NCBI GenBank assembly: GCA_937944395.1
Contig: CALDYW010000131.1
Location: forward strand, 1 to 36,332
Direction of reading: 5' to 3'
Origin: an uncultured Paracoccaceae bacterium
GTDB taxonomy: Bacteria; Pseudomonadota; Alphaproteobacteria; Rhodobacterales; Rhodobacteraceae
Length of the DNA: 36,332 nucleotides
This document shows, in pieces, positions 9,977-23,584 of this stretch. Under the pieces are notes generated by a model. The model had not been told where the DNA came from and ran no database searches. It was given only the letters and a program-made list of their open reading frames with translations. Every line of letters begins with the position of its first letter. Position 1 is the stretch's first letter. Position numbers and translations under genes: made by a program.

Positions 9977-11056
9977 TCAGTTGGCGGCGAGCCAGGCGTT
10001 GAAGCGCTCGTTCAGTTCGGCGTCGCGGTCCACCCAGAACTCGTAGTCCGACAGCAGCGCATTCGCGAGGTTCTCGGGCGAGGTCGGCAGGTGCGGCGCC
10101 ATGGGCGTGACCCCGTCGCCCTTGAAGACGCCGACGAGCGGCGCCGAGGAGGCGCGGGTCGGGCCGTAGCTGATCCAGGTCGCGGCGTTGGCCAGGGGCT
10201 CGGTCGAGGTGGCGAAGGCCACGAACTGCAGCGCGGCGTCGAGGTTCGGGGCGCCCTTCGGGATCACGAACCCCTCGGGCTCGTAGACCTGGCCGTCCCA
10301 GATGATCTGGAACGGCTGGCCCTCGGCCACCGCGGCGTTGAAGATGCGCCCGTTCCAGGCGATGCTCATCGTCACCTCGCCGTCGGCCAGAAGCTGCGGC
10401 GGCTGCGATCCGGTCTGCCACCAGACGATGTCGCCCTTGATCGAGTCGAGCTTGGCGAAGGCGCGATCGACGCCCTCGGGGGTGGCGAGCACCGAATAGA
10501 CCTCCTCGGCGGGCACGCCGTCGGCCATAAGCGCCATCTCCAGCGTCGCCTTGGCGCCGCGGCGCACGCCGCGCTTGCCCGGAAAGGTCTCGGTGTCGAA
10601 GAAGTCGGCGATCGTGGTCGGCGGATTGTCGGGGAAGGCGGTGGTGTTGTAGGCGACGATCGTGGCAAACACGTCGGTGCCCACCATGCAGTCGGTCACC
10701 ATGCCGGGCAGGAAGTCCTCCATCGCCGGGGTGCCGTCGGGGGCGGGGGGCAGGATCGCGTGGTCGATGACCTCGAGCATCCCCTCGTCGCAGAGCCGCA
10801 CGGCATCGGCGTATTCGACCACCGCGACATCGATGGTGACGTTGTTGGCCTCGACCATGGCCGGGATCGGGGTGGCCGGGTTGTCGCTGTCCACCGAGAT
10901 CACGGTGATGCCGGTCGCCGCCGTGAAGGGCTTGTGATAGGCCTCGACCTGGCTCTGGGTATAGGCGCCGCCCCAGCCGAGCACGGTGATGCTCTGCGCC
11001 GATGCCATGCCGGCGGCGCCGGCGAGGGCGGTGGTCAGGATCAGCAGTCTGGTCAT
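9977..11056 (-). CDS. ABC transporter substrate-binding protein, PotD-like
   Basis: Periplasmic binding protein (359 aa) of the spermidine/putrescine-type family. A Sec signal (MTRLLILTTALAGAAGMASAQ) ends in an AQ cleavage site and there is no lipobox. The mature start SITVLGWGGAYTQSQVEAYHKPF is characteristic. The hinge and lobe motifs DVAVVEYADAVRLCDEGML, IVWWQTGSQPPQLLADGEV and MSIAWNGRI match this class. The ligand cannot be assigned from sequence; the acidic pocket of true PotD cannot be confirmed by eye. It lies between the ATPase and permease genes on the same strand. Confidence 0.9.
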   Translation of the reverse strand: MTRLLILTTALAGAAGMASAQSITVLGWGGAYTQSQVEAYHKPFTAATGITVISVDSDNPATPIPAMVEANNVTIDVAVVEYADAVRLCDEGMLEVIDHAILPPAPDGTPAMEDFLPGMVTDCMVGTDVFATIVAYNTTAFPDNPPTTIADFFDTETFPGKRGVRRGAKATLEMALMADGVPAEEVYSVLATPEGVDRAFAKLDSIKGDIVWWQTGSQPPQLLADGEVTMSIAWNGRIFNAAVAEGQPFQIIWDGQVYEPEGFVIPKGAPNLDAALQFVAFATSTEPLANAATWISYGPTRASSAPLVGVFKGDGVTPMAPHLPTSPENLANALLSDYEFWVDRDAELNERFNAWLAAN

Positions 11057-11104
11057 CGGTCAGTCTCCCTGTCGTTGGCTTCGGGTTTCCGTTCGGGTGC
11101 AGTC

Positions 11105-12208
11105 TCAGGGCATATCGAGCGCGCGGGCATCGGCCGGCGACCAGCCGATGGTGACGCGCTCGCCCGGTTCAAGCCGCCGCTGCCCCGCGGCATTGCGGTA
11201 TTTCATGATGAAATCGTCCGATCCCGCAACCCTCAGCCGGGTGCGGAAACTGTCGCCCATGTAGATGAACTCGAGCACCTCGGCCTCGATCGTGTGAGCA
11301 TCGGCGGGGATCTGGTCGGGCTTGAACTCGACCCGCTCGGGGCGGATCGACACCAGCGTGCGCGCGCCCGGGCCCGTGACGTTGACCGGCGTCGCGTCGA
11401 TCAGCTCGCCGGTGTCCAGCCGCACCAGCGCGCGCCCGCCCTCGACGCTCTCGATCCGGCCGGGAAGCCTGTTGTTCTCGCCGATGAACTGGGCGACGAA
11501 GCTGTTCGCCGGGCGCTCGTAAAGCTCGTCGGGGGGGGCGAGCTGCTGGATCATGCCGTCGTTGAACACCGCGACGCGGTCAGACATCGTCAGCGCCTCG
11601 GACTGGTCGTGGGTGACATAGACCACCGTGATCCCGAGGCGTTCGTGCAGGTGCTTGATCTCGAACTGCATGCGCTCGCGCAGCTGCTTGTCGAGCGCGC
11701 CGAGGGGTTCGTCCATCAGCACCAGCTCGGGCTCGAACACCAGCGCCCGCGCCAGCGCGATGCGCTGCTGCTGCCCGCCCGAAAGCTGCGCCGGCCTCCG
11801 GCCGCCGAAGCCGGCCATCTGCACCATGTCGAGCGCGCGGCGCACCTTCTCCTCCCGCGCCGCCCTGCCGATCCCGCGCACCTCGAGCGGGAAGGCGAGG
11901 TTCTCGGCCACCGTCATGTGCGGAAACAGCGCGTAGTTCTGGAACACCATGCCGATGCCGCGCCGGTGCGGCGGCACCTGGGTGATCGGGCGCCCGTCCA
12001 GCCGGATCTCGCCGTGGGTCGCCGTCTCGAACCCTGCGAGCATCATCAGGCAGGTGGTCTTGCCCGAGCCCGAGGGGCCGAGGAGCGTGAGGAACTCGCC
12101 CTTCGGCATGGCGAGGTTCAGATCCTTCACGACCAGCGTGACGCCGTCATAGCTTTTCTGCACGCGGTCGAACTCGACGAATCCTCGCGCCTGTCCCGAT
12201 CCGTCCAA
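11105..12208 (-). CDS. ABC transporter ATP-binding protein, PotA-like
   Basis: ATPase subunit (367 aa from the chosen start) energising the Pot-type importer. Motifs in order: Walker A GPSGSGKTT, Q-loop QNYALFPHMT, signature LSGGQQQR, Walker B LVLMDEPLGALD and H-loop VTHDQSEALTMSDR. A C-terminal TOBE domain follows (LVSIRPERVEF, GERVTIGWSPADARAL). The start is taken as TTG at 12208, which has GGAG six bases upstream and leads straight into GFVEFDRVQKSYDG. A GTG at 12226 is a second choice; the frame continuing to 12493 runs through repeats and is not protein-like. First gene of the operon. Confidence 0.9.
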   Translation of the reverse strand: MDGSGQARGFVEFDRVQKSYDGVTLVVKDLNLAMPKGEFLTLLGPSGSGKTTCLMMLAGFETATHGEIRLDGRPITQVPPHRRGIGMVFQNYALFPHMTVAENLAFPLEVRGIGRAAREEKVRRALDMVQMAGFGGRRPAQLSGGQQQRIALARALVFEPELVLMDEPLGALDKQLRERMQFEIKHLHERLGITVVYVTHDQSEALTMSDRVAVFNDGMIQQLAPPDELYERPANSFVAQFIGENNRLPGRIESVEGGRALVRLDTGELIDATPVNVTGPGARTLVSIRPERVEFKPDQIPADAHTIEAEVLEFIYMGDSFRTRLRVAGSDDFIMKYRNAAGQRRLEPGERVTIGWSPADARALDMP

Positions 12209-12247
12209 CAGCCGCTCCTCCGGCACCGTCCAGACTGCCGCACCGGC

Positions 12248-12277
12248 GAGATAAGCCGAGCAGACGCCTGAATGCAA
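12248..12277 (-). promoter_or_regulatory. Candidate promoter of the Pot-type operon
   Basis: On the minus strand TTGCAT (12277-12272), an 18-bp spacer and TATCTC (12253-12248) resemble a sigma-70 promoter. Transcription would begin near 12241, leaving about 33 nt before the TTG start of the ATPase gene and only about 15 nt before the GTG alternative. This favours the TTG start. Confidence 0.35.
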
Positions 12278-12331
12278 TCCGCCCGCGGCGCGCGGGAAGG
12301 CAGTTGCCACAGTTGCGGGCAGAACGCCCCT

Positions 12332-12373
12332 GGCAGGCGCCCCGTGGCAGGCGCCCCGTGGCAGGCGACCCGC
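12332..12373. repeat. 14-bp direct repeat upstream of Pot operon, three copies
   Basis: GGCAGGCGCCCCGT occurs twice in tandem (12332-12345, 12346-12359), followed by the variant GGCAGGCGACCCGC (12360-12373). It lies upstream of the Pot-type operon promoter. The unit length and copy number match the repeat at the other end of the operon (7451-7492), but the sequences are unrelated. Confidence 0.85.
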
Positions 12374-12483
12374 GGGCAGGCCCCGCCGCCTGTGCGGCAC
12401 CGACGGCGACCAACTCCTTCCGGACGACCGGGTGCGGACCGGCCCCCACCCCGGCGACCAGTGCCGCGTCGCGCGCTTTTCCC

Positions 12484-12513
12484 TTGAAGGCACGGCGCGC
12501 GGGGTGCTATCCG
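12484..12513 (+). promoter_or_regulatory. Promoter of tRNA-Gly
   Basis: TTGAAG (12484-12489), an 18-bp spacer and TATCCG (12508-12513) precede a GC-rich discriminator. The predicted start lies within a few bases of the tRNA 5' end at 12523. Position and spacing are those expected of a stable-RNA promoter. Confidence 0.5.
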
Positions 12514-12522
12514 ACCAGCCGC

Positions 12523-12596
12523 GCGGGTATGATGTAATGGTAGCCTGTCAGCTTCCCAAGCTGAACGCGCGGGTTCGATTCCCGCTACCCGCTCCA
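12523..12596 (+). tRNA. tRNA-Gly (anticodon CCC)
   Basis: Cloverleaf with acceptor GCGGGTA/TACCCGC, discriminator T and an encoded CCA (12594-12596). The D arm contains the TAATGGTAGC consensus. The anticodon arm CAGCTTCCCAAGCTG has anticodon CCC, reading GGG. The T arm is CGGGTTCGATTCCCG with a standard T loop. It lies between the Pot-type operon and ridA and has its own promoter. Confidence 0.96.
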
Positions 12597-12662
12597 GCCC
12601 CTGCCCCGCCGATCCCCTGCCCGACCCCGGGTTGCGGAAAGGCCCGACCGAAAGGACTACGG

Positions 12663-13013
12663 ATGCCCGCGATCACGCGCCTCGAATCCGGCCCGAGGAT
12701 GAGCCAGGCCGTGGTGCACGGCGGCCTCGTCTATCTCGCCGGCCAGGTGGCCCTGCCGGGCCGCCCGGTGGCCGAGCAGACGGCCGGCGTTCTGGCCGAG
12801 ATCGACCGGCTGCTGGCCCTTGCCGGAACCGACAAGACACGCATCCTCACCGCTCAGGTCTGGCTGGCCGACATGGGCAGTTTCGCCGAGATGAATGCGG
12901 TCTGGGACGCCTGGGTGCCGGCCGGCCACACGCCGGCCCGGGCGACCGGCGAGGCGAAGCTGGCCACGCCGGATTACCTCGTCGAGATCATCGTCACGGC
13001 CGCGCTTCCCTGA
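12663..13013 (+). CDS. RidA/YjgF family protein
   Basis: Small cytosolic protein (116 aa) of the Rid family. RidA proper hydrolyses reactive enamine/imine intermediates from PLP enzymes such as threonine dehydratase. The ATG at 12663 has AAAGGA upstream and begins at the conserved core MPAITRLES. Family features: LVYLAGQVALPG, the helix EQTAGVLAEIDRLLALAGTDKTRILTAQVWL, and the HTPARATGEAKLATPDYLVEIIVTA segment. That segment carries the conserved Arg (PAR) used to bind the substrate carboxylate. The terminal Glu pairing of archetypal RidA is less clear, so another Rid subgroup is possible. Its 3' end overlaps the convergent holin gene by 20 bp. Confidence 0.88.
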   Translation: MPAITRLESGPRMSQAVVHGGLVYLAGQVALPGRPVAEQTAGVLAEIDRLLALAGTDKTRILTAQVWLADMGSFAEMNAVWDAWVPAGHTPARATGEAKLATPDYLVEIIVTAALP

Positions 13014-13578
13014 TCCGCGCCCCGGCACCCGCCCGGGCCCTCGGGGCGGACGTCCGCGCCTTTCCCTGCGCGCTCCGGCTGCCGCGCTCCGTCCGGGCGG
13101 CATCCTTCGCTTCCTCTTCCGGGGCCGGATCCTGCAGCACCGCCGCGGGCGTCGGCGGCAGCGGCAGCGGCAGCGGCGCCGGCAACGGCCCCGGCGCCTC
13201 GGCCGTGACGCGCCCTTCGCGGAAGTGGTGCAGTTCGCGCGCGCCGAAATAGAACCCGACGACACCGCCCAGCAGCCACCAGAGCGGCTCGGGCACGGAG
13301 GCGAAGGCCGCCATCCGCTCGGCGAAGCCTGCCGGGTCCACGACCCCGAAGCCGAACAGCGCGAGCGCGCCGAGCGCGAAGGCCGGGCGCGGAAGGCGGT
13401 TCAGGGCATCGATGGTGCGGTCGAAGCGGCCGCAGCCACCGGCGCGGGGCGCGGCCGACCCATCGCCGGCCTGCGCCGCGCCGGGAAGGGCGCCTGCCGC
13501 CGTCCGCGCGGCGGCGGAACCGCCCGCCAGCCGCACCAGCCGCGCCGCCGTGTCCGCGATGCCCGTTGCGCCGGCCAT
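12994..13578 (-). CDS. GTA-type 3TM holin
   Basis: Holin-like membrane protein (194 aa) of the family described as a holin of three transmembrane segments for gene-transfer-agent release. Diagnostic core: FDRTIDALNRLPRPAFALG, a membrane segment ALGALALFGFGVVDP, then AGFAERMAAFASVPEPLWWLLG and GGVVGFYFGARELHHFR. ATG 13578 is chosen over the longer frame because GGGGGAGG lies just upstream. The C-terminal about 65 residues are Pro/Ala/Arg-rich and unlike the core. In Rhodobacter capsulatus the GTA holin works with an adjacent endolysin; no endolysin gene is visible here, since the flanks are ridA and decayed DNA. The family match is strong, the activity is inferred. Confidence 0.85.
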   Translation of the reverse strand: MAGATGIADTAARLVRLAGGSAAARTAAGALPGAAQAGDGSAAPRAGGCGRFDRTIDALNRLPRPAFALGALALFGFGVVDPAGFAERMAAFASVPEPLWWLLGGVVGFYFGARELHHFREGRVTAEAPGPLPAPLPLPLPPTPAAVLQDPAPEEEAKDAARTERGSRSAQGKARTSAPRARAGAGARIREARP

Positions 13579-13820
13579 GCCCGCCTCCCCCGCCAGAACC
13601 GGAGCGACCCTGCGCCGGAACCGGTTAAAGGGGCAGTAAGCAAGCGTGCGCGGCCCGTGCCGGCAGAGGCGCGGGATCTCGGGGCGCCGCCGCCGCTGCC
13701 GGAACCGCAATCGCTAAGGGGCGGGCCTGCCCTCGGACCTTTGCCAGGAAAGTTTCGCCCGACCAGAGAAAGCCTTCGGCGCGTTGTCGCTGCGGGCGAC
13801 AGGGCCACCCCCGCCGGCAC

Positions 13821-14375
13821 CTGCGCGGCGATGCGCCCGCCCGCGATCAGGGCCACGCGGTCGGGCCGGCGCGCCGGAAGGCCCGGATCGTGGCTGACCG
13901 GCCGCACCGCGCGCTGCCCGTCGCGCAGGCAGGCGACCGTGGCCCCGGCGGCGTCGGCTTCAAGCGCCGAGGTCGGCTCGTCCGCCACGATCAGCGGCGG
14001 GTCGAGGGCGGCGGCCGCCGCGACCTTGGCGCGCTGGAGCATCCCCCCGACCATCGGTGCGGGTGAAGCGCAAGCGCCGCCGGGTCTGGGCCGAGCCCGC
14101 CGGCCAGCGCCGCCAGACGCGCCGGGTCGGGGGCAAGGCCGCGGGCGCGCCGGGCTCCATTCCACATGCGCCCGCACGGTCCGGTGCGCGGCGCAGGCGT
14201 CGAAGGGAGTCTTCGCGACAGAGCCGATCCGCTGCCCCAGCCGCGCCCGCAGCGCATGCCGGTCGGCCAGCTCGGTGCGGCCCTCGGGCATGTCGAGCGC
14301 GCCCGCAACCCGGGCCGACGGCGGCAGGAGGCCCGGAAGCGCGCGCAGATGCTCCGCAGGCTTGCTGACCGGACC
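13821..14375 (-). pseudogene. Decayed OppD/DppD-like ABC ATPase
   Basis: Remnant of an oligopeptide/dipeptide-type ABC transporter ATPase. Recognisable stretches are LRALPGLLPPSARVAG, ALRARLGQRIGSV, then in another frame APDPARLAALAGGLG, and back in the first frame MVGGMLQRAKVAAAA, ADEPTSALEADAAG and VSHDPGLPARRPDRVALIAGGRI. At least two frame changes are needed (near 14150 and 14055). The Walker A is degraded (GPVSKP where GSGKS is expected) and the signature begins VGG rather than SGG. The end at 13821 is where similarity fades. No partner permease or binding-protein gene remains. Confidence 0.7.
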
Positions 14376-14837
14376 GCGCGCCATCAGACCGGGACCGGGG
14401 CGGCGGCGTTCGAGGGGGCGCGGGGGCTGCGGGGCCCGGACGAAGCGTTCAGAGCGGGCGCAGGTCAGCCGGGGCCGGACAATCCGGTTCACGATCTCGA
14501 GCCATTGTCCGCCATCGGATCGGCGGCAACGGCGAGGAGCCGGGGACGCAGTCGGGTTCCTCGGTCATCTTTTCTCCGTTCCGTTGCAGGCGGCCACTGC
14601 AGTCGGCGCAGGCGTCGCCACCGGGCGTCGGTTCCCCTGCCAGCCGCGGGTCACGCGCCGGGATCGGGCGGCACTTGGGTTCGTCCCTCTCCTCGATGTC
14701 CGGGCACTTCATCCGGGCCGGCATCGCGGCGGCGGCGATCTCGCCGGTCGCAAGCGCCGGTTGCAGCTGTTCCGCCGTCTCGGAAGGGGCCCCGAACGGG
14801 TGCGACCGCCGAGACCGGCAAGCTGATGGCGCCTTTG
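14376..14837. other. Unassigned decayed stretch
   Basis: No gene supported. Minus-strand frames here include a short Cys-containing segment (KCPDIEERDEPKCRP, then GDACADCSGRL, about 14600-14710) whose origin I do not recognise. No ribosome site or family match supports it as an intact gene. Base use lacks the steady codon pattern of the flanking genes. Confidence 0.4.
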
Positions 14838-15484
14838 GCGACTCGATCCGTCCACCGGACGGCTCGAATTCGGGCTGTTCTCCGGCGCGCTCGCGGTGCT
14901 GGCGACGGGGCTGGTGGACCGGATCGGCCGAGGGGGCGCGCTGCGCCTGCGCGGGGCCAATGGCGCCGACCTGCCCCTGCCTGACGGACTGACGGCGCGC
15001 TTCGGCGACCACGGGCAGGCGATGGACACCGTTCTTGCGGCGCTGGCCGAGCTGGTCCCCGGTCGCGACATCGGTGCGGTCGGCCACCGCGTGGTGCACG
15101 GCGGGCCCGACCACGACCGGCCGGTGCGGCGGCACGCGCGCCTGCTGGCGGCGCTCGACCGGCTGTCGCCCTTCGCCCCCCTGCACCAGCCGCACAATCT
15201 GGCCGGCATCCGCGCCGCCGGGGCGACCTTTCCGGGTGCGGTGCAGGTGGCCTGCTTCGACGCCGCGTTCCACCGCGGGCACCCGTTCGTGAACGACACC
15301 TTCGCGCGGCCCCGCGCCCTCTACGACAAGGGCATGCGGCGCTACGGCTTCCACGGGTTGTCCTACGACTGCATTGCCGGCGCGCTGGCCGAGACCGCGC
15401 CCGACCTTGCCCGGGCGGGGCCGGGTGATCGTGGCGCATCTTGCCAACGGCGCGTCCATGTGCGCGCTGCGCGGCGGTCGGTGA
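14838..15484 (+). pseudogene. ackA: Truncated acetate kinase
   Basis: N-terminal half of an acetate kinase gene (acetate + ATP to acetyl phosphate). Clear family blocks in one frame are RLEFGLFSGALAVLATGLVDRIG, GHRVVHGG, APLHQPHNLAGIRAAG, VACFDAAFHRGHP and RRYGFHGLSYDCI. Near 15418 an extra G shifts the frame; in the next frame the expected RVIVAHLANGASMCALRGGR continues and then meets a TGA at 15482. The second half of the protein (about 200 residues) is absent and the N-terminal N-x-GSSS substrate motif is blurred to DPSTG. No phosphotransacetylase or phosphoketolase partner is seen nearby. Confidence 0.85.
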
Positions 15485-15939
15485 GCGGACCGAGGAGGGC
15501 CAGCAGAAAGCCCGGCGGACTGTTGGCCCGACGACGGTGCAGGCACCGCGGGGCCGGACGCGGGCCTTGGCCGGGGTGGCCCTCGCCGCGCCGCCGGGGC
15601 TGATGGTGTTCTGCATCCCGCGCCCCGACCCCGACGGCGCCGTCCGGCCCGCCACGCCCTTGTCCAGCCGGATGCCGGGCAGGTCGGGCCCGACCGCGCA
15701 AGGGGGGGCCGAAGGCGCGCCCCGGTCCGGGAAGGCGATGTGGCGCGCGAGCTCGACGCTCGCACCGCCGTCCGCCCGAAGCCCGACCGCGGTGACGCAG
15801 CCGGCCCCGGGCCAGACCTCATGCGCGCCGGTCGCGGAACCCTGCCGCAGCGCTCGCCGGCCGATGCTGCCCAGCCGGACGGGCCTTTCGCCCACGACAT
15901 CGGCGGCGGGAGCGATCGGGCGCGCGGTCAAGCCATGCC
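15485..15939. other. Unassigned decayed stretch before the sugar operon
   Basis: Nothing intact is supported. A long minus-strand frame (start near 15931, beginning MTARPIAPAADVVGERPV) runs across the region, and its first 90 residues look more protein-like than the rest. I recognise no family, and it continues antisense through the ackA remnant, so it is not called as a gene. Confidence 0.35.
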
Positions 15940-15992: not shown

Positions 15993-16009
15993 AACCTGTA
16001 TGACAGGTT
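15993..16009 (+). promoter_or_regulatory. Candidate autoregulatory operator
   Basis: AACCTGTATGACAGGTT is a perfect 7+3+7 dyad just downstream of the predicted transcription start, overlapping the first possible start codon of the regulator. FadR/GntR-family proteins bind short dyads of this size, and the location suits repression of the gene's own transcription. Family knowledge plus position is the basis; binding is not shown. Confidence 0.6.
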
Positions 16010-16728
16010 TGCCGAAGATGTGGAGCGATCCGGTGGATCAGGGTGTTGGGCTGGTGTCGAGCACGATCGGGGCGATCACCCGCCTGATCCGCGAGCAGGA
16101 TCTGATGCCGGGTGACCGGCTGCCGTCGGAGGCGACGCTGGCGCGCGATCTGCAGGTCTCGCGCACGGTCGTGCGCGAGGCCTTCCGCTCGCTCGCGGCG
16201 ATGCGGATCATCGAGCTTGCCAGCGGCAGGCGCGCCGCCGTGGCCCCGATCGATCACGGGGCGATGTCGCTGATCATCGAACACGGCGTGCACACCGACC
16301 AGATCAGCATCCAGCAGATCTACGACGTGCGCCGCACCATCGAGAGCCGCATCGTGACGCTGGCCGCCCTGCGGCGCAACGAGGGGGAGGCGCAGGCGAT
16401 CCGCGCCGAGGCCGCAGCGATGCGCGCGGCAATCGACGATCCCCCCGCGCTCATGCGCCATGATCTGGCCTTCCACATGGGCCTTGCCCGCGCCTCGCGC
16501 AATCCGGTCTTCGCGCTGATCATGGGGGCCTTCCAGGGCATCACCGCGCAGACCTGGCCGGTGGGCTGGCGCAGCCGGACGAGCGCCGCAGCGCGCGAGG
16601 CCATGATCGCCAACCACGAGAACATCGCCGCCGCGGTCGCCGAAGGCGACCCCGAGCGTGCCGCCGCCGCCATGTCGCAGCACTTCGACGACAGCGTGCG
16701 GGCGCTGATCTCGGCCGGACTGACCTGA
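16000..16728 (+). CDS. FadR-family (GntR/FCD) transcriptional regulator
   Basis: GntR-superfamily regulator of the FadR/FCD subfamily (242 aa), predicted to control the following sugar operon. The N-terminal winged helix-turn-helix spans about residues 18-83 (ITRLIREQDLMPGDRLPSE, LARDLQVSRTVVREAFRSL). The C-terminal FCD domain keeps the metal/ligand residues: Asp and His in HDLAFHMGLAR, His in ANHENIAA and His in SQHFDDSV. Such domains typically sense small organic or sugar acids. Two starts are possible: ATG 16000, which lies inside the operator dyad, or ATG 16018 (MWSDPV). The dehydratase gene follows after 7 bp, so the regulator is probably the first gene of the operon it controls. Confidence 0.88.
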   Translation: MTGLPKMWSDPVDQGVGLVSSTIGAITRLIREQDLMPGDRLPSEATLARDLQVSRTVVREAFRSLAAMRIIELASGRRAAVAPIDHGAMSLIIEHGVHTDQISIQQIYDVRRTIESRIVTLAALRRNEGEAQAIRAEAAAMRAAIDDPPALMRHDLAFHMGLARASRNPVFALIMGAFQGITAQTWPVGWRSRTSAAAREAMIANHENIAAAVAEGDPERAAAAMSQHFDDSVRALISAGLT

Positions 16729-16735
16729 GGAGACC

Positions 16736-17941
16736 ATGAAGATCGCCTGGATCGAGACCATCCGGATCGCCGAACGGCCGAACCTCCTCTGGGTCGAGGT
16801 CGGCACCGACGAGGGGATCAAGGGCCTCGGCGAGACCTTCTTCGGCGCGGCGACGGTCGAGGCGCATGTGCACGAGTGGATCGCGCCCCGGGTGATCGGG
16901 CGCGATCCGCTGCAGATCGACCGGCTCGCGGGCGAGCTTGTGGGCTATCTGGGCTTCCGCTCCTCCGGGGCGGAGGTGCGGGGCAACTCGGCCTTCGACA
17001 TCGCGCTGTGGGACATCTTCGGCAAGGCCACGGGCCAGCCGGTGGCGCAGCTTCTGGGCGGCTTCTCGCGGCAGTCGATCCGCACCTACAACACCTGCGC
17101 GGGCACCGACTACATCAAGGAGGCCACCGGCCAGACGACCGCCAACTACGCGCTCTCGGGCGGGGGGAAGGATTATAACGATCTCGACGCCTTCCTCCAC
17201 CGGGCCGACGAGCTTGCGCAGTCCCTCCTCGAGGAGGGGATCACCGCGATGAAGATCTGGCCCTTCGACATCGCGGCCGAACGGACGCGCGGCCACTACA
17301 TCTCGGCGCCCGATCTCAGGGAGGCGCTGAAGCCCTTCGAGAAGATCCGCGCCGCGGTCGGCGACCGGATGGACATCATGGTCGAGTTCCATTCGATGTG
17401 GCAGCTCCTGCCCGCGATCCAGATCGCCAGGGCGCTCGCGCCCTTCGCCACCTTCTGGCACGAGGATCCGGTCCGCATGGACAGCCTCGCGACCCTCAGG
17501 CGCTATGCCGAGGCGAGCCCCGCGCCGATCTGCGCCTCGGAGACGCTGGGCTCGCGCTGGGCCTTCCGCGACCTGCTCGAGACCGGGGCGGCGGGCATCG
17601 TGATGCTCGACATCAGCTGGTGCGGCGGGCTGTCGGAGGCGCGAAAGATCGCCGCCATGGCCGAGGCCTGGCATCTGCCCGTCGCGCCCCACGACTGCAC
17701 CGGGCCGGTGGTGCTCTGTGCCTCGACGCATCTGGCGCTCAACGCCCCGAACGCCCTCGTGCAGGAGAGCGTGCGGGCCTTCTACCGGACCTGGTACCGC
17801 GACCTCGTGACCGCCCTTCCCGAGGTGAAGGACGGCATGATCACGGTGCCGCCCGGACCGGGCCTCGGGACGGAGCTCGATCCCGATCTCGGCCGGGCCT
17901 ACACGGTGTCGCGCAAGAGGTCGGACGCGACCACGATCTGA
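16736..17941 (+). CDS. Enolase-superfamily sugar-acid dehydratase (MR/MLE type)
   Basis: Mandelate racemase/muconate lactonizing enzyme family protein (401 aa). Members related to this one mostly dehydrate aldonic acids to 2-keto-3-deoxy acids. The capping domain (residues 1 to about 120) ends with NSAFDIALWDIFGKATGQPVAQLLGG. In the barrel, the predicted Mg ligands are Glu217 (VEFHSMW), Glu243 (HEDPV) and Glu269 (ASET). His319 in PHDCTGP is a likely acid/base, and Lys173 (MKIWPF) may act on the opposite face. The residue pattern is compatible with acid-sugar dehydratases, but the specific substrate is not deducible. It sits between the regulator and the ABC importer, as expected for the first catabolic step on the imported compound. 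Confidence 0.85.
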   Translation: MKIAWIETIRIAERPNLLWVEVGTDEGIKGLGETFFGAATVEAHVHEWIAPRVIGRDPLQIDRLAGELVGYLGFRSSGAEVRGNSAFDIALWDIFGKATGQPVAQLLGGFSRQSIRTYNTCAGTDYIKEATGQTTANYALSGGGKDYNDLDAFLHRADELAQSLLEEGITAMKIWPFDIAAERTRGHYISAPDLREALKPFEKIRAAVGDRMDIMVEFHSMWQLLPAIQIARALAPFATFWHEDPVRMDSLATLRRYAEASPAPICASETLGSRWAFRDLLETGAAGIVMLDISWCGGLSEARKIAAMAEAWHLPVAPHDCTGPVVLCASTHLALNAPNALVQESVRAFYRTWYRDLVTALPEVKDGMITVPPGPGLGTELDPDLGRAYTVSRKRSDATTI

Positions 17942-17965: not shown

Positions 17966-18946
17966 ATGAGACGGACCCAAGGACTGCTCGCGGCCACGGC
18001 CGCCGTGATGATGACGGTGGCCCTGCCTGCCAAGGCGCAGGACACGCTGGAGGTCATCTTCACGCATCACTCGTCGGCCTCCAACACCTTCTGGCAGGCG
18101 GTGAAGAAGGGCTTCGACGACGCCTGCGGCAAGGTGGGGGCGAGCTGCCAGATGCTGTTCACCCAGACCGAGGGCTCGATCCAGGAGCAGATCGCCAACA
18201 TCGAGGCCGCGATCGCCCGCCAGCCCGACGCGCTGCTGACCTCGATCGTGGACAACAACGCGCTCGACGAGGTGCTGCAGCGCGCCCGCGACGCCGGCAT
18301 CGTGGTGATCGGCGTCAACGTGGATGACACCGAAGGAGCCGCTGGCAACCCCCGTCAGGCCTTCGTGGGCCAGGGCTTCCTCGGCGCGGGCTATGCGCTG
18401 GGCAAGGCGCAGTCGGCCAACTTCCCCGCCGAGGGGCCGATCAAGGTGCTGGTCGGCATCTCCGCCCCCGGCCAGAACTGGTCGGAGCAGCGCGGGCAGG
18501 GCATCATCAACTTCCTCGAGGAGTACAGGGCGACCACCGGCCGCGACATCACCTGGGAGCGGATCGACAGCGGCACCGACCTTGCGATCACCGCCGACCG
18601 CGTGGGCGCCTATCTCGCCGCCAACCCCGACACCACGGCCTATTTCGACACGGGGTTCTGGCATGCGGCGGTGGCACGGGTGCTGGCCGATCGCGGCGTG
18701 CCCCCGGGGCAGGTGCTGCTCGGCGGCTTCGACCTCGTGCCCGAGGTCGTGGAGGAAATGGAAAAGGGCTACGTCCAGGTGCAGGTCGACCAGCAACCCT
18801 ACATGCAGGGGTTCATGCCGGTGATGATGGCCTATCTGAACAAGACGGTGGGGCTGGCGCCCGCCGACATCGACACCGGGCAGGGTATCGTCACCCCGGC
18901 TGACGCGCCCGCGATCCGCGATCTCGCGGCGCAGGGCCTGCGCTGA
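17966..18946 (+). CDS. CUT2-type sugar ABC substrate-binding protein
   Basis: Periplasmic sugar-binding protein (326 aa) of the RbsB/FrcB class. Signal peptide residues 1-25 (GLLAATAAVMMTVALPAKAQ). The mature protein starts DTLEVIFTHHSSASNTFWQAVKKGF. Hallmarks are the segment QEQIANIEAAIARQPDALLTSI, GVNVDDTEG in the hinge region and QVQVDQQPYMQGFMP near the end. The ATG is preceded by a strong GAGGGAGG. A 13-bp hairpin follows the stop, consistent with higher expression than the permease. Ligand is probably a monosaccharide or sugar acid, given the neighbouring aldose epimerase and dehydratase. Confidence 0.92.
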   Translation: MRRTQGLLAATAAVMMTVALPAKAQDTLEVIFTHHSSASNTFWQAVKKGFDDACGKVGASCQMLFTQTEGSIQEQIANIEAAIARQPDALLTSIVDNNALDEVLQRARDAGIVVIGVNVDDTEGAAGNPRQAFVGQGFLGAGYALGKAQSANFPAEGPIKVLVGISAPGQNWSEQRGQGIINFLEEYRATTGRDITWERIDSGTDLAITADRVGAYLAANPDTTAYFDTGFWHAAVARVLADRGVPPGQVLLGGFDLVPEVVEEMEKGYVQVQVDQQPYMQGFMPVMMAYLNKTVGLAPADIDTGQGIVTPADAPAIRDLAAQGLR

Positions 18947-19005: not shown

Positions 19006-19986
19006 GTGCGGCGGCTCCTCAAGACCTTCCTGCAGAAACCCGAGCTCGCCGCGGCGCTCCTGCTCGTGCTGCTCGTGGTGCTGTTCCAGTGGCAGTCGAA
19101 CGGCGTGTTCCTGTCGCAGGCCAATCTGCGCGGTGTGCTCGGGCTCCTGCCCGAGATGGCGCTGGTCGCGGTCGGCGTGACGCTGTTGATGATCTGCGGC
19201 GAGTTCGACCTCTCGGTCGGCTCGGTCTTTGCGCTGATGCCGATGAGCATGGCGGTGCTGATGACCCAGGGCTGGCCCTTCCTGCCGGCGATGGCCGCGG
19301 GGCTCCTCGTCTGCGCGCTGATCGGCCTTCTCAACGGCTGGGTCACCATACGCTTCGCCATCCCCTCGTTCATCGTCACGCTGGGGATGCTGTTCATGGC
19401 GCGCTCGCTCACGGTGGTGATCTCGGGCGGCTTCCCGCCGCGGCTCGACATGGCGCGCATCCCCGAGGAGATCTTCATCGGCTTCGTCGGCCCGGGCGGG
19501 ATCCTCCGCGCTTCCTTCCTGTGGTTCCTCGGCATCGCGATCCTTGTCAGCCTGCTGCTGTCGCGCACCAACTTCGGCAACTGGGTGCGGGCGACAGGAG
19601 GCTTCCTGCCGGCGGCGCAGGCGATGGGCATCCCCACCGCACGGGTCAAGATCGCCTGCTTCATGATCTGCTCGATCCTTGCGGGCTTTGCGGGCATGAT
19701 CCAGGTGCTGCGCGTGGGCTCGCCGTTGCCCTCGATGGGCGAGGGGCTCGAGCTTGCCGCCGTCGCCGCCGCGGTGATCGGGGGCACGGCGCTTACGGGC
19801 GGCATCGGCTCGATCCTCGGCGGCGTGATCGGGGCGACACTGATCCGCGTGATCGACAACGGGCTGGTGCTCAGCCGGGTCGATTCCAACTGGTTCAAGT
19901 TTGCCATCGGCGCGCTGACGATCCTTGCCGTGGTCGGCAACGCCTGGCTGCGCAAGCGCGGCCGTGCGATGAAGGTGGAGGGCTGA
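19006..19986 (+). CDS. CUT2-type sugar ABC permease
   Basis: Inner-membrane permease (326 aa) of the RbsC/FrcC family. Several hydrophobic helices are clear: AALLLVLLVVLFQW, MALVAVGVTLLMIC and FLPAMAAGLLVCALIG. The family motif GEFDLSVGSVFALMPMSMAVL is the conserved early loop of RbsC-like proteins, and the C-terminal GGTALTGGIGSILGGVIGATLIRVIDNGLVL is also diagnostic. GTG start at 19006 with AAAGGA upstream; no ATG fits better. It forms a homodimeric channel in this family. The ATPase gene follows after 3 bp. Confidence 0.92.
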   Translation: MRRLLKTFLQKPELAAALLLVLLVVLFQWQSNGVFLSQANLRGVLGLLPEMALVAVGVTLLMICGEFDLSVGSVFALMPMSMAVLMTQGWPFLPAMAAGLLVCALIGLLNGWVTIRFAIPSFIVTLGMLFMARSLTVVISGGFPPRLDMARIPEEIFIGFVGPGGILRASFLWFLGIAILVSLLLSRTNFGNWVRATGGFLPAAQAMGIPTARVKIACFMICSILAGFAGMIQVLRVGSPLPSMGEGLELAAVAAAVIGGTALTGGIGSILGGVIGATLIRVIDNGLVLSRVDSNWFKFAIGALTILAVVGNAWLRKRGRAMKVEG

Positions 19987-19989
19987 GCG

Positions 19990-20742
19990 ATGACCACGGA
20001 GTTCCGCACGGCCACCGATCCCGTCATCTCGGTGCGCAACCTGCACAAGTGGTATTCGGGCGTCCACGCCCTTCGCGGCGTCAGCCTCGACTTCGCGCGC
20101 AACGAGGCCGTGGGGCTTGTGGGTGACAACGGGGCGGGCAAGTCCACCCTGATCTCGATCCTCTCGGGACTGAACCAGCCCGACGAGGGCGAGCTCTTCG
20201 TCGATGGCCGGCCGGTGCGGATGCGCGGCCCCCGCGACGCGATGGATCTGGGGATCGAGACCATCTACCAGTACAACTCGATGGTCCCCAGCATGTCGAT
20301 CGCCCGGAACCTCTTCATCGGGCGCGAGCCCCTGAAGGCCTCGCTGTTCGGCATCGGCGTCCTTGACGAGGCGCGGATGCGGGCCGAGAGCGTGGCCGCC
20401 ATCGCCGATGTGGACCTGCATCTGCGCTCGCCCGATGCGCTGGTGGGCGAGCTTTCGGGCGGCCAGCGGCAGGGGGTGGCGATCGCGCGGGCGATGCACT
20501 TCAAGTCGAAGGTCCTGATCCTCGACGAGCCGACGAACCACCTCTCGGTCAAGGAAACCAACAAGGTCATCGGTTTCGTGCGGTCGCTCGCGGCGCAGGG
20601 CGTCACCGGCATCTTCATCAGCCACAACATGCACCATGTCTTCGCCTGCTGCGACCGGGTGGTGGCGATGGCGCACGGGCGCGTGGTGCTCGACAAGCCG
20701 ATCGGGGAGACCTCGATCGAGGAAGTCCACGAAGTGCTCTGA
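19990..20742 (+). CDS. Sugar ABC ATP-binding protein, single domain
   Basis: ATPase for the CUT2 importer (250 aa). Walker A is VGDNGAGKST (about residues 44-53). The signature is ELSGGQRQGVAIARAM, Walker B LILDEPTNHLSVKE and the H-loop ISHNMHHVFACCDRV. RbsA, XylG and MglA are tandem two-domain proteins of about 500 aa. This one has a single domain, like FrcA of rhizobial fructose importers, and must act as a homodimer. The ATG follows the permease stop by 3 bp and the GAGAGGGGGGGAC after its stop serves the next gene. Confidence 0.92.
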   Translation: MTTEFRTATDPVISVRNLHKWYSGVHALRGVSLDFARNEAVGLVGDNGAGKSTLISILSGLNQPDEGELFVDGRPVRMRGPRDAMDLGIETIYQYNSMVPSMSIARNLFIGREPLKASLFGIGVLDEARMRAESVAAIADVDLHLRSPDALVGELSGGQRQGVAIARAMHFKSKVLILDEPTNHLSVKETNKVIGFVRSLAAQGVTGIFISHNMHHVFACCDRVVAMAHGRVVLDKPIGETSIEEVHEVL

Positions 20743-20753
20743 GAGGGGGGGAC

Positions 20754-21980
20754 ATGGGCAACGGCGTTCTGCGCGTCTATCAGGAGGACTGGTTTCCGTT
20801 CCGGGCCCTGCCCGAGGCGTTGCGCGCCTTCACGCGCGCAACCGGCATCCGCGCCGAGCTCGCCTGGGACACGGTCGGCGTGGGCACCATCGAGCACATG
20901 TTCGACACGATGGTGGGTTCCTTCACGGCCGAACGGCCCGCCTTCGACGTGGTCTGCTGCGACGAGATCATCCTGCGGAAGATGCACCGCCTGGGCGGGG
21001 TGACCGATCTCGCGCCCCGGATGCGGCACGAGGGCATGTCGCTGGTCCATGTGACCGAGGCGACGCGCCAGGCGGTGACCCTTGGCGACGCGGTCCTCGG
21101 CCTGCCCTGCGTCAACGTCTCATCGATGCTTCTCTGCCGGCGCGACCTGCTCGGGCGCCACGGCCTGCCCGTGCCACGCGACTGGGCCGAGCTGCGCAGC
21201 GTCGCCCTCGCGCTGCAGGAGGCAGTGCGGCGCGACGAGGGGCGGGAGTTCTGGGGGTTCGAGACGCGCGGCGCCGGCGGGGGCGGCCATGCCGTCTGGA
21301 CGGTGGGCAGCTTCACGGGCTCGCACGGCGTCCGCTGGCTCGACGACGCGGGGGCACCGCTGCCGCAGGGCGAGGGCCACCGTGCCGCGCTGGAAACCTA
21401 TCTCGACATCATCCGCACGGTCTGCCCGCCGGATCAGGCGCAGATCAGCTTCGTCGAGATGCGGCGCGACTACGCCGCGGGGCGGGTGGGCATGATCATG
21501 GATGTGGGCATGGAATACGCCCATGTGCTCGCCAGCACCCCGCGCCTCGCCGAAGCCTCGGTGGCGGCGATGGTGCCCGCCGGGCCCGCAGGCCGGGCGC
21601 CCAACCTCTACTGCCCGGCCTGGGCGATCCCCGCGCGCACCGACATGGCCGACGAGGCCTGGGAGCTCGTGAAATTCCTTGCTTCGGATGCCCGCCTCCT
21701 CGCCGACGGGCTCGAGGCGAATGCGGTCGAGACCGCCTCGCTTCCCGTCCTCTACAGCGCGGAGTTCGACCGGCATTTCCGGCCCGACCTGCTGTCGGCG
21801 GTGCGCGCCTCGCGCGCGGTGGCGCGCGAGGAGCGGCCCTTCGGCCCCCACGGGATCGAGGCCTGTGCCGTCGTCGGCGATGCCGTCGAGGCCGCCATCC
21901 GCGGGCAGGAGACGGTGGACTCCGCGCTTGCCAGAATCGACCGCGGACTGGCCGCGCTCGCCGAAGGAGAGGCGCGATGA
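20754..21980 (+). CDS. MalE-like solute-binding protein lacking a signal peptide
   Basis: Protein of 408 aa with the fold signature of CUT1 (family 1, MalE/UgpB-like) extracellular binding proteins. Blocks include LPEALRAFTRATGIRAELAWDTV, FDVVCCDEIILRKMHRLGGVTDLAP, PVPRDWAELRSVALALQ, YAAGRVGMIMDVGMEYAHVLAS, and DEAWELVKFLASDARL with AWAIPARTD. The N-terminus MGNGVLRVYQEDWFPFRALP starts directly at the mature first strand, and no hydrophobic leader or lipobox exists. The strong G-rich ribosome site supports this start. No CUT1 permease accompanies it and the operon already has its own CUT2 binding protein. It may be cytoplasmic: a sugar-binding accessory, sensor or enzyme-like derivative. The start could also be mis-set, but the upstream in-frame sequence overlaps the ATPase gene and offers no signal peptide. 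Confidence 0.75.
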   Translation: MGNGVLRVYQEDWFPFRALPEALRAFTRATGIRAELAWDTVGVGTIEHMFDTMVGSFTAERPAFDVVCCDEIILRKMHRLGGVTDLAPRMRHEGMSLVHVTEATRQAVTLGDAVLGLPCVNVSSMLLCRRDLLGRHGLPVPRDWAELRSVALALQEAVRRDEGREFWGFETRGAGGGGHAVWTVGSFTGSHGVRWLDDAGAPLPQGEGHRAALETYLDIIRTVCPPDQAQISFVEMRRDYAAGRVGMIMDVGMEYAHVLASTPRLAEASVAAMVPAGPAGRAPNLYCPAWAIPARTDMADEAWELVKFLASDARLLADGLEANAVETASLPVLYSAEFDRHFRPDLLSAVRASRAVAREERPFGPHGIEACAVVGDAVEAAIRGQETVDSALARIDRGLAALAEGEAR

Positions 21981-22696
21981 CCACGGGGACAAGCCCCCGC
22001 CATGTCCTGGTCACCGGCGGTCTCGGCACCATCGGCCGGGCGATGGCCGCGGCCTTCGCCGCGGCGGGGCACCGGGTGACGGTGCTCGACCGCCCCGGCG
22101 GCGCCGCGCCCGACGGCATGGGCTGGCTCGGCGTGGACCTCAACGATCTCGCCGCCACGCGCGAGGCCGCGGCCGGGCTTGCCGCGCGCGACCCCGTGCA
22201 GGTGCTGATCAACAACGCGGCGCTCATCATCAACAAGCCGCATGATGCCTTCAGCATCGCCGAATACGAGGACCAGATCCGCGTCAATTCCTCGGCCGCC
22301 TTCGTGCTGACGGCCGCGCTTGCGCCCGGCATGAAGGCCGCCGGCTGGGGCCGGGTGATCAACCTCACCTCGATCACGCTCAACGGCCAGTGGGACGGCT
22401 ATGTGCCCTATGTCGCCTCCAAGGGCGCGATGCTCGGGCTCACCAAGGGCTTCGCGCGCGAACTCGGGCCGCATGGCATCACGGTGAACGCGATCTCGCC
22501 CGGCGCCGTGGTGTCCGAGGCCGAGAACCGCGTCTTCGCCGACCGGCTTGAGCAGTACAACGCCTGGGTGCTCGAGCGGCAGTGCATCAAGTCGCGGATC
22601 CAGCCGGAGGATGTGGCGAACCTCGCGCTCTTCCTGTGCTCGGATGCGGCGCGGATGATCTCGGGGCAGAACATCGCCATCGACGGCGGGTGGTGA
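21977..22696 (+). CDS. SDR-family oxidoreductase
   Basis: Short-chain dehydrogenase/reductase (239 aa, classical type). The cofactor motif is TGGLGTIG at the N-terminus, then NNAAL. The catalytic Ser is in INLTSITLNG, and Tyr-x3-Lys is YVASK; the end GQNIAIDGGW is typical. The start overlaps the preceding stop (ATGA). Placed with an aldose 1-epimerase and an acid-sugar dehydratase, the likely role is oxidation of an aldose or of a hydroxyl of the sugar acid. It could equally be a 2-keto-3-deoxy-acid dehydrogenase; the sequence does not decide. Confidence 0.88.
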   Translation: MTTGTSPRHVLVTGGLGTIGRAMAAAFAAAGHRVTVLDRPGGAAPDGMGWLGVDLNDLAATREAAAGLAARDPVQVLINNAALIINKPHDAFSIAEYEDQIRVNSSAAFVLTAALAPGMKAAGWGRVINLTSITLNGQWDGYVPYVASKGAMLGLTKGFARELGPHGITVNAISPGAVVSEAENRVFADRLEQYNAWVLERQCIKSRIQPEDVANLALFLCSDAARMISGQNIAIDGGW

Positions 22697-22708: not shown

Positions 22709-23584
22709 GTGATCGAATTGTGCGCAGGGTCCGCCCGGGCGCAGATCGGTCCCCGGCATGGCGCGGCGGTCGCAATGCTCGAGACCGGGGGGCTGCCGAT
22801 CCTCCGCCCCCTGGCCCCGGGGCGGGAAGATGAGCCCTTCGCCTGGGCGATGAACATTCTCGCCCCGTTCTCGAACCGCGTCTCGGTGCCGATCCCGGCC
22901 GGGGGCGTGTCCGTGCCCCTTGCCCCGAACCTCGCCGGTGAGCCGTTTCCGATCCACGGCGATGCCTTCCAGCGGCCCTGGACGGTGACGGGCCGGACAC
23001 CCGATGCCCTGCGGCTCGACCTGGCGGACGGCTGCTTCGGCCCCCTCCGCTATGCCGCGGCGCTGACCTACCAGCTGTCGCCCGGGGCCTTCACGGCGCG
23101 GCTCGTCCTGCGCAACCGCGCCGCCTGCGTGCTGCCCTTCGGCGGCGGCTTCCATCCGTGGTTCCCGCGCGATGCGGGAACCCGGGTCGCCTTCGCCGCC
23201 ACCGGCTGGTGGCCCGAGGACGCCCGCCACCTGCCGCGCACGACCGCGCCCGAGCCGCTGCCCGAAGACCTGCGCTTCGAGACGCCCCGCCCCCTGCCCG
23301 GGGGCTGGATCAACGCGGGCTTCGCGGGCTGGCCCGGCGAGGCCCGGATCCGGCAGGCGGGCACGGGCCTTGCCCTGCGCCTGATCGCGCGCGAGATGTC
23401 CACGCTCCTCCTCTTCTCGCCGGGGCGCGAGGCCGACTTCTTCTGCCTCGAGCCCGTGTCGCATCCGGTCGATGCCCATGCCCTGCCGGGGCATCCGGGC
23501 CTGCGTTTCCTCGCGCCGGGCGAGGAGATGACCCTGTCGATGACCCTGGAATGGAGCGGCGAGGGCGCGCAGCCCGCCCCCTGA
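22709..23584 (+). CDS. Aldose 1-epimerase family protein
   Basis: Galactose mutarotase-like enzyme (291 aa) that interconverts alpha and beta anomers of aldoses. Family blocks: NILAPFSNRV, the catalytic-His segment PIHGDAFQRPW, GGFHPWFPRD with the second conserved His, and CLEPVSHPVDAH containing the catalytic-Glu position. Start is GTG at 22709, 12 bp after the SDR stop, with GGGGGCGCGGCGG upstream. It is the last gene of the operon. An anomer-specific oxidation of a free aldose, as in oxidative non-phosphorylating sugar pathways, would explain its presence beside an SDR and a dehydratase. Confidence 0.88.
   Translation: MIELCAGSARAQIGPRHGAAVAMLETGGLPILRPLAPGREDEPFAWAMNILAPFSNRVSVPIPAGGVSVPLAPNLAGEPFPIHGDAFQRPWTVTGRTPDALRLDLADGCFGPLRYAAALTYQLSPGAFTARLVLRNRAACVLPFGGGFHPWFPRDAGTRVAFAATGWWPEDARHLPRTTAPEPLPEDLRFETPRPLPGGWINAGFAGWPGEARIRQAGTGLALRLIAREMSTLLLFSPGREADFFCLEPVSHPVDAHALPGHPGLRFLAPGEEMTLSMTLEWSGEGAQPAP

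Follow-up and report, generated by a model that had tools for sequence, protein, structure and literature searches.

A leaderless CUT1-type solute-binding protein family associated with CUT2 sugar-oxidation clusters of Alphaproteobacteria

Introduction

Sugar-specific solute-binding proteins (SBPs) of the CUT1 type are exported and serve partner permeases, and proteins of the SBP_bac_1 family are routinely labelled "extracellular solute-binding protein". The SBP fold is also found in enzymes, among them the chorismate dehydratase MqnA, Thi5 and porphobilinogen deaminase. AmiC, whose adjacent partner is AmiR, belongs to an SBP class different from the CUT1 type. In a survey of SBPs, about 1% of the proteins found with SBP profiles were predicted to be cytosolic, and some were single-domain proteins with other functions, for which AmiC-AmiR is cited (PMC9602780, reference 28 therein). 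As cited in that survey, AmiC of Pseudomonas aeruginosa is a cytosolic, single-domain protein of SBP fold which acts on a catabolic operon. Cytosolic SBP-fold proteins are thus a known kind. The open-licence papers searched contained no account of a leaderless CUT1-type family linked to an oxidative CUT2 operon.

The window analysed here, i.e. the whole stretch of 36,332 nucleotides, encodes such a protein on the plus strand at positions 20754–21980 (stop codon included). It consists of 408 amino acids, shares the single-domain SBP-fold architecture with AmiC and forms, together with eight orthologues from other Alphaproteobacteria (57–83% identity), a family of nine members.

Results and Discussion

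Overall fold and family assignment

The predicted protein matches the Pfam family SBP_bac_1 (PF01547) with an E-value of 3.3e-13 over residues 52–313. Its PDB matches in a phmmer search are CUT1-type sugar SBPs, the best being 4RYA (1.9e-13), and a profile built from six family members finds 4RYA at 6.6e-30. By fold and by sequence the protein is therefore of the SBP_bac_1 type that characterizes SBPs of CUT1 importers. Residue 81 pairs with residue 81 of 4RYA, and the numbering runs 1:1 with that of a mature SBP, the protein accordingly being full length, with its N-terminus coinciding with the first strand of a mature SBP. Foldseek comparison of a structure model of the Devosia orthologue, which is of moderate quality (mean pLDDT 65.7), likewise yielded matches to CUT1-type SBPs that span the full length (best E-value 1.1e-17); an earlier prediction was too poor (pLDDT 54.7) and was set aside. 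These matches and the open reading frame bear out the earlier note, which had described a MalE-like protein without a leader, beginning at the mature fold, inside a complete CUT2 operon.

Full-length two-domain fold and sequence homology are shared with the CUT1-type sugar SBPs 4RYA of Agrobacterium vitis, SmoF and MalE3. Unlike these, the protein lacks both a leader and a permease and contains four to nine cysteines in the different family members, the SBP relatives compared being poor in cysteine.

Absence of an export signal

In the window, the reading frame contains no ATG, GTG or TTG codon across the 130 codons back to the preceding stop. The first 35 residues are devoid of a hydrophobic core (best 11-mer 0.52 on the Kyte-Doolittle scale), in contrast to the N-terminus of the operon's own CUT2 SBP (17966–18946, plus strand; MRRTQGLLAATAAVMMTVALPAKAQ), which reaches 1.98 by the same measure and carries a normal signal peptide, as had been noted before. 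Applied to all members, this screen found a leader-like N-terminus in none of the nine leaderless proteins and in six out of seven CUT2 SBPs. The start position without a leader is the same in all eight orthologues, and several members display a good ribosome-binding site directly in front of it.

Inspection of the upstream in-frame starts, as proposed in the earlier note, yielded nothing leader-like (Sec, Tat or lipobox) from any plausible start, neither in the window nor in the orthologues. Upstream starts are missing altogether in the window and at loci L005, L006, L007, L028 and L029; moreover, a stop codon precedes the start by 4 codons in L005 and by 5 in L006, which makes a leader impossible there. 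A single ATG 11 codons upstream in L004 and several starts 26–81 codons upstream in L027 are not followed by leader-like sequences, and in L003 upstream starts occur only from 243 codons up, within the ATPase gene. A hidden upstream start was accordingly rejected. The same applies to a frameshift fusion with the preceding ATPase, since the frame relation between the two genes varies from locus to locus and such a fusion would not be conserved.

A cognate CUT1 permease (BPD_transp_1) is absent from the window operon, and none of the nine family members has one of its own, in agreement with the earlier claim that a partner permease is lacking. At two loci, L028 and L029, a CUT1 ATPase gene is convergent to the leaderless gene. 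In L028 it belongs to a complete CUT1 transporter (10427–15809) with its own signal-bearing SBP; in L029 a similar ABC ATPase occupies the same place, the scan for the full CUT1 set having covered L028.

Export in the service of a CUT1 or the CUT2 permease, whether from a non-canonical start, through a frameshift fusion or by a leaderless route, would fit the full SBP fold and the transporter found next to the gene in L028. However, this transporter is already equipped with a leadered SBP, neither a usable start nor a conserved fusion is at hand, and the cysteine content differs from that of other SBPs, so that export appears very improbable.

Cysteine content and putative ligand-binding cleft

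Within the family, Cys68 and Cys119 are invariant among the four to nine cysteines per member. Nine other SBP_bac_1 proteins, eight from genomes carrying the leaderless protein and one from Shinella, have zero to two cysteines, counted in the aligned region, which is shorter than the full length. The high cysteine content fits a reducing compartment and, in combination with the missing leader, suggests a location in the cytosol. The label "extracellular solute-binding protein" is very probably wrong for this conserved family.

The most conserved segments are YQEDWFPF, WDxVGVGT, CDE, GLPCVN, RGAxGGGHAV, ISFVE, the stretch from GRVGM through VGMEYA, PAGPAGR and NLY. Judging from the SBP fold, these segments may line the cleft, a region in which the structure model is weak; the invariant residues assigned to the putative cleft are Cys68, Asp70, Glu71, Cys119, His179 and Glu254. 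Such strong conservation points to a small-molecule ligand and argues against a pure scaffold; the suggestion that the protein is a scaffold for the SDR and the dehydratase found no support.

The gene cluster of the window

The cluster, encoded on the plus strand, opens with a GntR/FCD transcriptional regulator (16000–16728; PF07729, PF00392) and a mandelate-racemase (MR)-type sugar-acid dehydratase of the enolase superfamily (16736–17941; phmmer E-value 9.7e-230 to 4DX3). The CUT2 SBP is followed by the permease (19006–19986; PF02653) and the 250-residue ATPase (19990–20742), which ends 11 nt before the leaderless gene. Downstream lie an SDR dehydrogenase (21977–22696), whose start codon overlaps the stop codon of the leaderless gene, and an aldose 1-epimerase-like protein (22709–23584; PF01263). 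The immediate neighbors are thus the CUT2 ATPase and the SDR, and the dehydratase gene, earlier described as adjacent, comes second in the cluster. With regard to the substrate of the operon, all NCBIfam matches listed fall below their cut-offs.

The CUT2 ATPase comprises a single nucleotide-binding domain, the usual fused CUT2 ATPases of about 500 amino acids (NCBIfam models) being twice as long; the short form also occurs in the related operons examined. Upstream of the cluster, a truncated acetate kinase frame (14896–15934; Pfam 2.6e-28, profile positions 29–191 of 392) directly adjoins what remains of an SMP-30 lactonase gene, its N-terminal part, on the minus strand (15473–15931, about 37% identity). 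In L003, L004 and L006 the lactonase is intact at this place, and the junction in the window probably stems from a deletion or from the joining of sequences during assembly.

Genomic context across the family

At seven of the nine loci the leaderless gene is part of a GntR/MR dehydratase/CUT2/SDR/SMP-30 lactonase cluster, which is found in three arrangements. In the window, L003, L004 and L006 it is flanked by the CUT2 ATPase gene upstream and the SDR gene downstream, and at all four loci its stop codon overlaps the SDR start as ATGA, a usual sign of translational coupling. The cluster of L003 has no dehydratase gene; a copy with 62% identity is present on another contig of that genome. In L028 and L029 the gene follows that of the SMP-30 lactonase, the latter being divergent from GntR-MR-CUT2-SDR-aldose epimerase, and in the reshuffled cluster of L007 it follows the MR dehydratase gene. 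Outside of the cluster are L005, where the gene is solitary near nadABC, and L027, where it lies downstream of an IlvD/Edd dehydratase gene. Both genomes still encode an MR dehydratase (71% identity) elsewhere, along with a CUT2 set 71–77% identical to that of L007. The earlier expectation of a leaderless clade always beside SDR/enolase genes therefore holds for the missing leader (nine of nine), whereas "always" is too strong for the cluster (seven of nine).

In the sample of 397 genomes, the dehydratase is present in only 33, among them all five that carry the leaderless protein. By hand calculation, the chance of this co-occurrence is about 3e-6, or 4e-4 without the two genomes already known for the protein, values which are indicative only since G769 and G929 are near relatives.

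Comparison with operons lacking the leaderless protein

Plasmids of Ensifer, Sinorhizobium meliloti and Shinella carry an operon of the order GntR-MR-(GntR)-SBP-permease-ATPase-SDR-aldose epimerase with a divergent SMP-30 gene, i.e. the same genes as the window in nearly the same order. It differs in that the leaderless gene is missing between ATPase and SDR, which identifies this gene as an add-on. By gene content, the core pathway would consist of sugar import, oxidation to a lactone by the SDR, hydrolysis by SMP-30 and dehydration by the MR-type enzyme. As the operon looks complete without the leaderless protein, the latter is not needed for this core pathway. The two forms of the operon offer a clean natural comparison.

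It has to be considered whether the protein is itself an enzyme, built on an SBP fold and active in the cytosol, which contributes an auxiliary step, e.g. isomerization or hydrolysis of a sugar, lactone or acid. Most of its neighbors are sugar-oxidation enzymes (SDR, SMP-30, MR dehydratase, IlvD/Edd), enzymes with SBP fold exist, and many polar residues as well as two cysteines are invariant in the expected cleft segments. However, plain binding would explain the same conservation, and the apparent pathway is complete without the protein. A simple substitute for the lactonase was rejected because the SMP-30 gene is retained at five loci with the leaderless gene. An enzymatic role is thus rather unlikely, although it is better placed than the other alternatives.

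A GntR/FCD regulator is encoded in the window cluster and at six other cluster loci, which could point to an AmiC-like sensor that gates a regulator such as this one. GntR/FCD proteins have a ligand domain of their own, though, and the same kind of GntR is kept in the operons without the leaderless gene. Unlike AmiC with its adjacent AmiR, the protein has no such partner, no regulator gene adjoining it at the seven cluster loci, and its role is putative. AmiC, which the SBP survey (PMC9602780) names as a single-domain protein of the cytosol that bears an SBP signature but has another function, is a precedent; a sensor of this type is nevertheless unlikely.

Proposed role of the leaderless protein

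The missing export signal, in combination with a context of mostly sugar-oxidation genes, makes it most likely that the protein binds a compound of the pathway inside the cell. Since it travels with sugar-oxidizing enzymes, we infer a pathway sugar, lactone or acid as the ligand class. With moderate confidence, and judging from sequence data, the protein is considered to bind a ligand in the cytosol, without a part in transport, and to be dedicated to the sugar-oxidation pathway; the ranking of roles reflects our own judgement. Its ancestor would have been an exported CUT1 sugar-binding protein which lost its leader and now acts in the cytosol independently of transport. Sugar admitted by the CUT2 importer would be oxidized and dehydrated by SDR, SMP-30 lactonase and the enolase-superfamily dehydratase, while the leaderless protein, apparently translationally coupled to the SDR at four loci, may hold the sugar, lactone or acid in its cleft. 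Its most likely role would be that of an intracellular metabolite receptor or buffer which aids the SDR, lactonase or dehydratase steps. Against a dedicated binder stand the observations that it has no constant partner besides the pathway as a whole and that two members are located outside the cluster.

Tentatively, the family could represent the first recognized CUT1-type SBPs turned into a cytosolic enzyme or metabolite receptor and added on to a sugar-oxidation pathway, and their invariant cleft might harbor new chemistry or sensing. Owing to the defined genomic context, ligand binding or catalysis in the cytosol can be tested directly.

Distribution and sequence constraint of the family

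A single search of 84,980 species genomes for exact 8-residue patterns retrieved five relatives, 60–83% identical over the whole length, and three more were detected among 397 sampled genomes from the order of one of the five. Samples from the window's family (296 genomes, 1e-40), class (385 genomes, 1e-25) and phylum (398 genomes, 1e-40) yielded no member besides the window's own protein, nor did plasmids yield a copy at 1e-20. The family is hence rare, scattered and observed in Alphaproteobacteria only. Its members score about 640–800 bits with the family profile, whereas no other SBP encoded in these genomes exceeds 95 bits. Phylogenetic analysis groups the nine members in one fully supported clade, the stem of which measures 1.9 changes per column and whose placement among the outgroups is uncertain.

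Compared with the 83% identical orthologue, pN/pS amounts to 0.235, similar to the neighboring ATPase, SBP and SDR; the value was read from this closest orthologue, synonymous change being near saturation in more distant comparisons. Replacement changes are thus suppressed. The sporadic distribution and the truncated SMP-30 gene next to the window cluster might suggest a remnant of an exported SBP that is undergoing decay. However, nine intact reading frames with suppressed replacement changes and a conserved start and ATGA coupling speak against decay, and conservation across distant genomes largely refutes this barely plausible explanation.

Shinella (L022, 14694–15839) encodes another SBP-fold protein without a leader (PF13416, 9e-10), the gene of which overlaps that of a CaiB/BaiF CoA-transferase. 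Similarity between this protein and the family described here is undetectable, and leaderless SBPs may have had more than one origin.
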